Source of the DNA: Bacteroidota bacterium
GTDB lineage: Bacteria > Bacteroidota > Bacteroidia > Chitinophagales > LD1
Assembly (NCBI GenBank): GCA_018267365.1
Contig: JAFDYQ010000012.1
Span: forward strand, 1 to 64,000
DNA: 64,000 nt
Direction: 5' to 3'
The translations under genes were made by a program, and so were the position numbers. This document shows, one piece after another, positions 2,781 to 6,047 of this stretch. Below the pieces are notes generated by a model. That model did no database searches and was not told the DNA's origin. It saw nothing but the letters and a program-made list of their open reading frames with translations. Position 1 is the stretch's first letter. Each line of letters begins with the position of its first letter.

Positions 2781-4118
2781 TCAGAAAGTATACCTGATGG
2801 TAGCATTGGCCCCAAAATCAAATACACGGCTATGCTGCATCCTGATCGGTGCCAAGCTCATACGCATAGCAGGCTCTGCTGAGATGCTGATGCGGTGAGG
2901 TAGCAAAATATCTACTCCTATCGTATACATCATAGATGCATAATACCTCCTGCCGTTGCCGAGAGAGTAGTATTCCATCAATTGCCCGGTGGTGGCCGGA
3001 CTGCTGGCAATGTTAAGGTTGGCTACTGCCTTGCCAGGCTCAAAGCTATTCACACCAGGGAAATCAGCCACGGCCACAGGAACAAAGGTGGCAGGAGGAG
3101 ATTTGGGACTGAGCTGGTATGCAAATTTCTCGCTCATCTTTATGTGATTTACATAAGAGATCCCGGCACTCAACCTGATATGTCGGGAGGTGTAAGGGTA
3201 TATTTTGACGCCAAGAGGAATGGCTATCTCTTTGATCTGAGATGTGAAACTAATCAGGTCATTGTATTGATTGTCCGGGTAGGCCGGATGATCGATTTTA
3301 AAGTTAACCTCAGAATATAGAATGCTATTGGTGATTGCGAGATATTTACCGATATGCAGCTGCTGTGAGATACCGGCGGTCCATGTAGGGGTAGCGCCAA
3401 AGGTTTTTCTGGTGTAGGAAGCAAATATGCCGGACTCAGCTCCCAGCGCGTAGGACACGAGTATTTTGTGTTTATGATGCGCGGGGATCGATGCTGTGGG
3501 TGCACCATCAGGGTCAAGCTCGGCTTTGTCTTTATTCTCATAGAGCAGGCTTCCACGGTTGTGCATAAGGTCATCTGCGTACAGACCCGGGGCAAAAGTT
3601 GATTGCTCCTCTTTAGAGTTTTGTATCCTGTCACTCGGTCCGGATTTTTTTGATCCTGTCTTGCGCGTGAAAGTATTGCGCAACGGCGCAGCATTACTAA
3701 GAGGCGCACCGGAGTGAGTAGAAGTTCTCGAGATGTTTTCTTGCTGTGCAGCCGCAGATGTCGAGTTTTCGTTTGGACTGTGGCCATCCTCTATGATGTT
3801 GCCATGACCGTCTTTTGATGGGGCCTTGAAATCTACCGCAGCGACCGATTGGGTAGTCGTGCCGACAGTAGCAGGAGCAGATGGCCGCGCCAGTTTATGC
3901 TCCGATTCGATATGGATAGTAGCATAGTATACTCCGGCGCTCACCAGCAGGGCTATTGATACTGCCCCTGCAGATAACCACCACCAGAGCAGGCCGCGCC
4001 GCTTTTTGCGGTCCATCAGCTGCTCCATCGCTGCCCATGCGCCAGGATCGTACGCGTACTCTGCAGAGAGCAGTTTGTCGCGCAGGGCCTTATCGTTGGG
4101 ATTCTCTGCCATACTCAT
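2781..4118 (-). CDS. Membrane-anchored anti-sigma-like protein with C-terminal barrel-like domain
   Basis: The N-terminal ~40 residues are cytoplasm-like and charged (KALRDKLLSAEYAYDPGAWAAMEQLMDRKKRRG). One transmembrane segment follows at about residues 43-66, then a low-complexity Ser/Thr/Pro linker, and from about residue 215 a domain of alternating aromatic strands ending in a terminal Phe, like a PorT-type outer-membrane barrel. The gene starts 29 bp inside the upstream ECF sigma gene, so the two are translationally coupled. That context and the topology suggest it restrains the sigma factor; this is inference. MAENPNDK at residue 3 (4112) is an alternative start. The combination of an inner-membrane anchor and a barrel-like end is topologically odd. 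Similar proteins beside sigma factors are known in Chitinophagales but are poorly described. Confidence 0.75.
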   Translation of the reverse strand: MSMAENPNDKALRDKLLSAEYAYDPGAWAAMEQLMDRKKRRGLLWWWLSAGAVSIALLVSAGVYYATIHIESEHKLARPSAPATVGTTTQSVAAVDFKAPSKDGHGNIIEDGHSPNENSTSAAAQQENISRTSTHSGAPLSNAAPLRNTFTRKTGSKKSGPSDRIQNSKEEQSTFAPGLYADDLMHNRGSLLYENKDKAELDPDGAPTASIPAHHKHKILVSYALGAESGIFASYTRKTFGATPTWTAGISQQLHIGKYLAITNSILYSEVNFKIDHPAYPDNQYNDLISFTSQIKEIAIPLGVKIYPYTSRHIRLSAGISYVNHIKMSEKFAYQLSPKSPPATFVPVAVADFPGVNSFEPGKAVANLNIASSPATTGQLMEYYSLGNGRRYYASMMYTIGVDILLPHRISISAEPAMRMSLAPIRMQHSRVFDFGANATIRYTF

Positions 4119-4674
4119 CTGTTTTGACTGTTCTGTTTTCTTCTATCATTTTCCTCAGTTTCACTTTTGCCTTAGCCAGGTTAGATTTAGAGGTGCCCTC
4201 GCTGATGTCCAGTAGCCCCGCTATCTCGGGGTGCGTATACCCCTCCACCACGTAGAGATTAAATACCGCGCGGTAGGCCGGTGTGAGTGCATTGACCATG
4301 GCCATGATCTCATCTACTGTCAGATCGGACACCACATCGGCTGTATCCTCTATATAGATAGTATGATCTACCTCTGCGTGCCTGTGTCGTATCTCGGCGC
4401 GTAGATGATCTATAGCGGTATTGATCATGATCCGGTGCATCCATGCCTCGATGCCGGTATTATCTTGTTTTCTGTATTCTTTGATCGCGGTGAAAACCTT
4501 CAGGTACCCCTTATTCAATATCTCGGTGGCCTGGTCGCGATCGGCAGCATAGCGCATGCAGGTGCCCATCATACGCGGATAGAGGCGCTCATAGAGCAGC
4601 TTCTGCGCGGATCGCTCACCGCGTCTGCACCCCTCTATGATCTCATCCAGCATTTTGTGATAGGACACCTGCAT
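4090..4674 (-). CDS. ECF-type RNA polymerase sigma factor
   Basis: This 194-residue protein has sigma-70 region 2 at about residues 27-95 (YERLYPRMMGTCMRYAAD, then EAWMHRIMINTAIDHLR) and region 4 at about 120-175 (ALTPAYRAVFNLYVVEGYTHPEIA, GTSKSNLAKAKVKLR). There is no region 1 or 3, as in extracytoplasmic-function sigma factors. It would direct RNA polymerase to an envelope-related regulon. It lies 31 bp downstream of the LVIVD lipoprotein gene on the same strand and overlaps the downstream anti-sigma-like gene by 29 bp, so the three probably form an operon. Confidence 0.93.
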   Translation of the reverse strand: MQVSYHKMLDEIIEGCRRGERSAQKLLYERLYPRMMGTCMRYAADRDQATEILNKGYLKVFTAIKEYRKQDNTGIEAWMHRIMINTAIDHLRAEIRHRHAEVDHTIYIEDTADVVSDLTVDEIMAMVNALTPAYRAVFNLYVVEGYTHPEIAGLLDISEGTSKSNLAKAKVKLRKMIEENRTVKTDEYGRESQR

Positions 4675-4705: not shown

Positions 4706-5965
4706 TTATCTGGCTATGGCTATATGACCGAGCGGCGTGATATGCTGCGGATCACTATAGTCATATTCATACAGTCCGTTAGTACCGATCATGAGCAGCG
4801 TTTTATTCCATGCTATCACATCCTGAGATTGTATGGCTCCAAACTGCCCCAGTGAGTGACTGCTTATGCTCCGGACATCACCTGCGTCAAATACTTTCAG
4901 GCCCTCATCTCCATCGCAAATGAAGAGTGTAGCGCCATCTATACTGAGCCCGCGGGGGCTGTGCAGAGGATAGGTAGCTACTATGGTCGGAGCAGTGGTA
5001 TTAGATACATCTACTACTTCCAGTTCATTTACGGTGTTATTGCATGTCGTGCCGCTGTGCAGTGTCACGTAAGCATAGTGGTCCTGCACTATCACAGGAT
5101 CGCAGGACAGGGCATGAGTAAAGGTGGCATCATGCTGAGGGGCGAATGGGCTATTGAGATTAAATATCTGCATGCCTGTAGAGGTGCCGATATATAGATG
5201 GCTCTGATAGGCAAAGATCGTTTCAATATTCCAGCCTATCTGACTGCTGCCGGCAGATATGGGTGCCGCGGCATTGCTGATATTAAATACCCTGAGTGCC
5301 GACTGATCTACTATATAGAGCGCGCTGCGATCTATAGCAAACCGGCTGGTAGAGCCTGCAATGTTGGGTGAGGAGGGCACATTGGCCATAGCGCTGCCGG
5401 TGGAGGCCGCCGAGTTCATAGGCTTAGCCCAATCACCCTCCATCCATACTACGGGTCCGCCCGAGGCGCATGGCACTTTCTCCGTGACTCGTGCGGAGTC
5501 ATAGCCGGTCAACACTCCACTGCTGCCATCTGCAAAGCTCGTGTAGAGCGGAGGCAGGGCGTCGTACACTGTATTGGCCACTGAGGGGCTCGACGGGTCA
5601 GAGATATTCAGCGCTATCAGTGCGGTATAGCAATCGGCATACAGGATGTTATCCTTTACAGCCATATCTATGTTGCCCGGTATATTGATGAAGGCGACGT
5701 TTAGAGGAGCTGATGGATTGGCATTGTCTATCACATGTATCCCTTGCATGTATTCATTGATCAGAATATAGTGGCCCGTCAGAAAGATCTTACCGGTGTT
5801 CTTTAGAGGGGTCGGGGCCATAGTTTTCACATCCTGTACGATATCAGATATCTGCCGATAGCGCGGGGTGTACTTCCAGTAGGTTTGAGTCTGCTCGCAT
5901 TGGTCTTTTTTGCAGGAGGCAAGCAAACCTGCCAGCAGGATGATCGGTATGATTAGTTTTTTCAT
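4706..5965 (-). CDS. LVIVD-repeat lipoprotein
   Basis: The N-terminus MKKLIIPIILLAGLLASCKK is a lipoprotein signal with the lipobox LLAS-C and the modified Cys at residue 18. The rest is built of repeats in which a short strand such as GIHVIDNANPSAP, LIALNISDPSSP, LRVFNISNAAAP and ELEVVDVSNTTAP is followed by a turn. This is the LVIVD repeat pattern, which is expected to fold as a beta-propeller. It should be attached to the periplasmic face of a membrane or exposed on the surface. It is the first gene of the probable operon with the ECF sigma factor and its anti-sigma-like partner, which hints at a sensing or structural role in the same circuit (inference). 419 residues, intact. Confidence 0.85.
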   Translation of the reverse strand: MKKLIIPIILLAGLLASCKKDQCEQTQTYWKYTPRYRQISDIVQDVKTMAPTPLKNTGKIFLTGHYILINEYMQGIHVIDNANPSAPLNVAFINIPGNIDMAVKDNILYADCYTALIALNISDPSSPSVANTVYDALPPLYTSFADGSSGVLTGYDSARVTEKVPCASGGPVVWMEGDWAKPMNSAASTGSAMANVPSSPNIAGSTSRFAIDRSALYIVDQSALRVFNISNAAAPISAGSSQIGWNIETIFAYQSHLYIGTSTGMQIFNLNSPFAPQHDATFTHALSCDPVIVQDHYAYVTLHSGTTCNNTVNELEVVDVSNTTAPTIVATYPLHSPRGLSIDGATLFICDGDEGLKVFDAGDVRSISSHSLGQFGAIQSQDVIAWNKTLLMIGTNGLYEYDYSDPQHITPLGHIAIAR

Positions 5966-5997: not shown

Positions 5998-6047
5998 AGG
6001 CAACGGTTGTCATTCGGAAAACGTTATGAACAAGGCAACGGTTGCCT
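5998..6047. promoter_or_regulatory. Candidate operator: repeated palindromic motif AGGCAACGGTTG(CCT)
   Basis: The 103-bp divergent intergenic region holds AGGCAACGGTTG at 5998-6009 and again at 6033-6047, where it extends to the perfect dyad AGGCAAC-G-GTTGCCT. The copies start 35 bp apart. It sits between the start of the LVIVD/sigma operon (minus strand) and the small barrel-protein gene (plus strand), where a shared regulator could bind. No regulator is identified. Confidence 0.4.

Follow-up and report, generated by a model that had tools for sequence, protein, structure and literature searches.

The window (the whole stretch of 64,000 nucleotides analysed here, from a Bacteroidota genome) carries on its reverse strand two overlapping genes, the upstream one for a sigma factor and the downstream one for a protein of 445 amino acids (Table 1). 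The original prediction had placed an ECF sigma gene overlapping an anti-sigma-type gene at this position, and both the coordinates and the Pfam matches to sigma regions 2 and 4 confirm it; in NCBIfam the sigma protein matches TIGR02937. The overlap marks the two genes, at the level of sequence, as translationally coupled. Neither Pfam nor NCBIfam has a family for the 445-aa protein, and homologues of it occur in 34 of the 99 related genomes, which indicates that this is not a chance open reading frame. It is a single-copy gene in its own 4.6 Mb genome, where the one further match, at E 0.55, falls short of significance. The protein may start at Met3 instead of Met1, as the majority of aligned relatives begin around there. 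A FecR-type pair was considered and dismissed because Pfam gave no FecR match.

Table 1. Features of the sigma/anti-sigma locus, in window coordinates.
Feature	Position	Strand	Basis or remark
ECF sigma factor (Das-like), 194 aa	4090..4674	-	Pfam Sigma70_r2 3.9e-12, Sigma70_r4_2 8e-16
Putative Dma-type anti-sigma protein, 445 aa	2781..4118	-	start perhaps Met3, 4112
Overlap of sigma and anti-sigma genes, 29 bases	4090..4118	-	
Residues 1-42, putative sigma-binding domain, two short helices	3993..4118	-	alignment A1, low-confidence model
Residues 43-66, one membrane helix, RKKRR ahead (N-in)	3921..3992	-	hydropathy
Residues 67-220, low-complexity periplasmic tether	3459..3920	-	pLDDT 20-30, low identity
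Residues 221-445, predicted 8-stranded outer-membrane barrel, Phe at end	2784..3458	-	model and fold matches
LVIVD-repeat lipoprotein gene	4706..5965	-	Pfam LVIVD 3.1e-7, lipobox LLASC
Divergent small secreted protein, 217 aa	6069..6722	+	signal peptide by crude rule
Candidate ECF promoter GGCAAC-N17-CGTT	6020..6046	-	54 bases before LVIVD gene
Mirror candidate promoter GGCAAC-N17-CGTT	5999..6025	+	43 bases before 217-aa gene

Only 31 bases upstream of the sigma gene lies that of an LVIVD-repeat lipoprotein, which is probably part of one operon with the sigma and anti-sigma genes. The divergent 217-aa protein beyond it had no Pfam match and is probably an outer-membrane barrel, to judge by its sequence. 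This neighbourhood recurs in the order, as the LVIVD gene is found upstream in 17 and the divergent gene in 19 of the 22 loci retrieved with larger flanks; among 20 phylum loci a single one (L118) has genes of both types, placed 3' of the anti-sigma gene. None of the papers found on LVIVD repeats dealt with sigma factors, judged by title and the start of the abstract. On the other side of the pair, a DUF1572/DinB-like gene (2277-2729) comes next after the anti-sigma gene, a position it keeps only within the genus (L032, L033, L080), and a gene for an FG-GAP repeat protein with a T9SS sorting tail (90-2291) is convergent with the operon.

Domains of the 445-aa protein

Mean identity to three relatives from the genus is 89% over residues 1-42, 76% over residues 43-66, 30% over residues 67-220 and 71% over residues 221-445, i.e. 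two conserved ends stand either side of a freely varying tether, the length of which ranges from 133 to 260 residues in 20 homologues. In alignment A1, made from 21 homologues from related genomes, L16, W28 and M31 are invariant (21/21), and the Trp of the N-terminal domain is also invariant across 29 sequences from the phylum. A full-length AlphaFold model from four sequences (pLDDT 35, used for secondary structure only) places helices, with low confidence, at residues 7-17 and 25-70, and the best 19-residue hydropathy windows lie at residues 43-52 (values 1.6-1.8, maximum at residue 43). The N-terminal domain matched no known anti-sigma family in Pfam and no solved one in a PDB sequence search, where neither the whole profile nor the N-terminal 72 residues as query gave a meaningful match. 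From their position and the family to which the protein belongs, we infer that residues 1-42 form a putative sigma-binding domain.

The C-terminal domain had been predicted to be barrel-like, and the model of residues 215-445 alone agrees, with modest confidence. Of five models built from 4 sequences (pLDDT 58.5, 42, 29, 28 and 23) one is fair, and this best one (mean pLDDT 58.5) consists of eight long antiparallel strands, most of them with alternating hydrophobic and polar faces. When compared with known structures (Foldseek and VIA-align) its top match was OprF (4rlc; Z 13.2, 133 of 135 residues aligned, rmsd 2.7), followed by OmpA (1bxw, Z 12.8), NspA (1p4t, Z 12.4) and OmpW (Z 12), while photosystem PsbO and other folds trailed at Z of about 9 or less. 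The soluble fold that had been named beforehand as the contrary outcome did not appear, matches of the OprF/OmpA type being the ones that lead. Homologues point the same way: the chain ends in an aromatic residue in 16 of the 21 members of A1 (Phe in the window), and the family OMP_b-brl_2 (PF13568) is matched by 14/21 of them at E up to 1 and by 21/29 members from the phylum at E up to 0.01, in the C-terminal part wherever coordinates were given. A predicted outer-membrane barrel is thus the best reading of the modelled domain.

The domain might instead be a periplasmic barrel-like fold or beta-sandwich, which would make the protein a conventional single-pass anti-sigma factor whose sensor is soluble. 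In keeping with such a sensor, the window protein itself lacks a Pfam barrel match, the model is of modest confidence and three of the 29 phylum relatives (L051, L057 and L059), encoded beside the same class of sigma factor, are short proteins of 241-265 aa with no barrel apparent, so that a barrel does not always accompany this class of sigma factor. Yet the lead of the four outer-membrane proteins over PsbO and the like, the strand alternation together with the terminal Phe, and the OMP_b-brl_2 matches in most homologues of both sets all argue for the outer membrane, and we consider a periplasmic sensor improbable. The C-terminal ends of the three short proteins resemble one another.

Sigma adjacency and relationship to known systems

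The protein is widespread: 110 of the 392 phylum genomes searched contain a match to profile A1, families outside the class of the window included. The viral contigs scanned for further sequences yielded no relative. We retrieved 63 loci (L001-L063), 58 of them distinct once the window's own (L001, L034) and the re-fetched L031-L033 (contigs identical to L002-L004) were set aside. The survey of adjoining sigma genes that had been proposed gave a clear answer: in 57 of the 58 distinct loci, across the Bacteroidota, the gene immediately upstream, on the same strand, encodes a sigma factor, and the sole exception (L014) begins inside the gene at a contig end. Within the order (L001-L030) the two genes overlap in 28 of 30 loci, by 4-35 bases (upper values, since first start codons were used); L026 has a gap of 9 bases and L014 is not judgeable.

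Proteins that join such domains in one chain are known. Dma proteins were reportedly first described in 2024, in PNAS, from Bacteroides thetaiotaomicron, a gut bacterium. The architecture as such is therefore not new here, and the span across the envelope that had been called unusual does deserve the word in general but has not been novel since that description. According to the part of the published account available (PMC13088901, J Bacteriol 2026), members of the Dma family have an N-terminal sigma-binding domain, a membrane helix, a disordered tether and a C-terminal barrel, their gene adjoins an ECF21 sigma gene and they are "found solely among Bacteroidota"; the sections available also report increased vesiculation on deletion, and list the dma2 gene order as sigma, anti-sigma, DUF4943, DUF4858 and a nitronate monooxygenase-like gene (PMC13088901). 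The succession predicted for the window protein (sigma-binding-like segment, inner-membrane helix, disordered linker, barrel) agrees with this architecture as well as with the analyses above. The experiments on Dma described in the portions of the literature found concern B. thetaiotaomicron only, and our literature search found nothing on Dma1 in the context of Chitinophag- or Flavobacteri- taxa.

For a direct comparison we used the DUF4943 family, which turned up in 11 of the 396 genomes searched from the class. Three of these loci were fetched, and two (L203, L204) have sigma, anti-sigma and DUF4943 genes followed by two more in one common order, named by Pfam as DUF4858 and nitronate monooxygenase in L203, the only locus scanned for these names; the third (L205) did not show the dma2 order. 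By gene order alone, L203 and L204 were equated with Dma2. Their anti-sigma proteins match profile A1 (hhalign probability 96%, E 4.5e-9) over the barrel part only, a match to which the generic barrel fold could contribute. The whole A1 profile touches the N-terminus of these proteins too, the N-terminal domain profile alone did not match them, and L16 and W28 fall at the same residue numbers in both. The window sigma factor is 37% identical to that at the das2 position. Like the pairs Dma1/Das1 and Dma2/Das2, the window pair has this domain order, an adjoining ECF sigma gene and a Bacteroidota host. It differs from Dma2 in size (445 aa vs 351-356 aa at the dma2 position) and in its neighbours, with the LVIVD lipoprotein and the divergent 217-aa gene instead of DUF4943 and DUF4858. 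On the barrel-profile match, the positions of L16 and W28, the sigma identity and the gene order of L203 and L204, we file the window protein as Dma-type, a putative sigma binder with a tentative ECF21 partner.

Other systems are known or proposed to pass the state of the outer membrane to an ECF sigma factor. FecR-type systems do so through a single-pass anti-sigma protein, which touches a TonB-dependent transducer in the periplasm; barrel and anti-sigma are thus two separate proteins there, whereas they form one chain in the window protein. For SigX-CfrX-OprF of Pseudomonas aeruginosa, the available part of the source proposes that the OprF barrel informs an ECF sigma factor (PMC8999054). 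OprF is also the best match of the modelled barrel in the window, but CfrX is a separate soluble protein with no covalent link to the barrel.

A different relationship between the two genes would be that the 445-aa protein acts as an activator, or that it is an unrelated protein of the outer membrane which happens to be encoded in this operon. Sigma binding is putative and the N-terminal domain matches no known anti-sigma family, as set out above, which leaves room for such readings; against them stand the near-constant adjacency of a sigma gene (57/58), the conserved cytoplasmic segment of 42 residues with its invariant W28 and, in the published sections available, the requirement of Das2 for the Dma2 deletion phenotypes (PMC13088901). 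Taken together these make an activator or a bystander very improbable.

A candidate promoter and the proposed circuit

Both copies of GGCAAC-N17-CGTT in the window (2 found vs 0.05 expected) lie in the 103-base gap between the LVIVD gene and the divergent gene and share the central AACGTT. The spacing is specific: in 42 loci (471,797 bases) GGCAAC-N17-CGT occurs 41 times with a spacer of 17, vs 1-4 times with each of the spacers 12-16 and 18-22. Of the 17 loci where the LVIVD gene comes first, 16 have the motif ahead of that gene, 13 of them 24-57 bases away (for L083, L089 and L090 the start codon used, which is the first, falls before the end of the motif); it was not found in the remaining one (L094). 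The motif also stands before the divergent gene in 10/19 loci, at -8 to 93 bases, and directly before the sigma gene in 4 of 25 loci without an upstream LVIVD gene; the exact mirror pair is present in 8/17 LVIVD-first loci as well as in the window. With one mismatch allowed, the motif was found in 5 of 22 more distant upstream regions vs 0-3 at other spacers. The two dma2-position loci have no such motif before their sigma genes, a further difference from the window. We take GGCAAC-N17-CGT to have the form of an ECF promoter, and its place ahead of the sigma operon implies autoregulation. No related work on GGCAAC boxes and sigma factors in Bacteroidetes was found (by title and the start of the abstract), and by this literature search both the candidate promoter and the LVIVD link are unpublished.

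To look beyond the locus, GGCAACNNTT-N13-CGT was searched in 30 genomes with the reversed motif as a control. The seven genomes of the genus gave 29 matches vs 3 in the control, and the 23 others no excess (53 vs 58). All 19 genus matches outside the locus were fetched, and ten of them are followed within 60 bases by a gene with a signal peptide (in L174, L176, L177 and L178 distances were taken from a later start that provides this peptide). Among these ten are sites before orthologues of a 507-aa secreted protein in all five genus genomes with the locus; this protein has a PKD domain and a T9SS sorting tail, and its motif stands 44 bases upstream (L163:2001-3594, G000:C45). The other candidate targets are two further proteins with a T9SS tail, two lipoproteins and a barrel-like protein. 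Five matches (L162, L165, L172, L173, L180) had no support and were judged to be chance. All six candidate target types count as secreted, and given that the crude rule would count 18 of the 50 window genes as secreted, this is suggestive of an envelope regulon, not proof of one.

These sites could serve another sigma factor and say nothing on the output of this pair. A paralogue (G000:C75:126060-126563, locus L066), 38% identical to the window sigma factor, has counterparts in most related genomes, including those without this locus, and the window's 4.6 Mb genome has 15 sigma region-4 matches in total. One genome without an orthologue (G014) retains AGCAAC-N17-CGT, with one mismatch, before its homologue of the 507-aa gene, which is why the paralogue may read a similar box. 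Nevertheless, the motif stands before the sigma operon in nearly all LVIVD-first loci and directly before the sigma gene in the four loci mentioned, and the relatives without an orthologue (G002, G003, G010, G012 and G014, of which G003 is 73% and G012 87% complete) have only 1, 0, 0, 0 and 0 exact matches. Sole control by the paralogue was set aside as the main reading and kept as a rival, and it seems to us rather unlikely that the sites belong to another sigma factor.

We therefore favour, with a probability of roughly 0.8, a Das/Dma-type pair whose anti-sigma protein spans inner and outer membrane and whose output includes its own operon as well as the cell envelope. In this proposal the N-terminus would stay in the cytoplasm and hold the sigma factor, the tether would cross the periplasm and the cell wall, and BAM would put the barrel into the outer membrane, so that one chain would bridge both membranes. 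A trigger at the outer membrane, which might be a failure or change in barrel assembly, a partner at the surface or an altered secretion load, would lead to release of the sigma factor, probably through a cut in the exposed tether and then proteolysis within the membrane. The freed sigma factor would read GGCAAC-N17-CGT promoters, with the divergent symmetric pair driving the 217-aa gene one way and the LVIVD-sigma-anti-sigma operon the other, and further sites driving genes for T9SS cargo, lipoproteins and other secreted proteins. Since it would thus read the promoters of its own operon and of envelope genes, the circuit would be both autoregulated and directed at the envelope.

A more elaborate form of this proposal is a closed surveillance circuit for the outer membrane in this order of Bacteroidota, in which the membrane-bridging barrel anti-sigma protein is read out or tuned by the surface LVIVD lipoprotein and the small secreted barrel. 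A single mirror promoter with a shared palindromic -10 box would drive these two along with the anti-sigma and sigma genes, and the sigma factor would control T9SS cargo and surface lipoproteins. We offer this as a speculative possibility; if it is true, the load on secretion or on the outer membrane would in turn act back on transcription.

What is added to the Dma picture is the candidate mirror promoter, the conserved neighbourhood of lipoprotein and secreted protein and a small set of genes that are probable targets in the envelope, i.e. an environmental branch of the Dma kind with a conserved set of partners and a precise candidate promoter. The latter allows target genes to be predicted from sequence, while the sensing step becomes accessible through the LVIVD lipoprotein and the small secreted protein. 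The spread of the profile through the phylum suggests that this is a common Bacteroidota way to couple the outer membrane to transcription.

Four of the 19 genus matches, doubtful as promoter sites, lie 116-135 bases before a deacetylase gene (L164, L166, L171, L175). In these four genomes of the genus, a near-identical 26-base motif occupies the space between a gltX-like gene and the polysaccharide deacetylase gene (e.g. L164:2001-2856, G000:C74).
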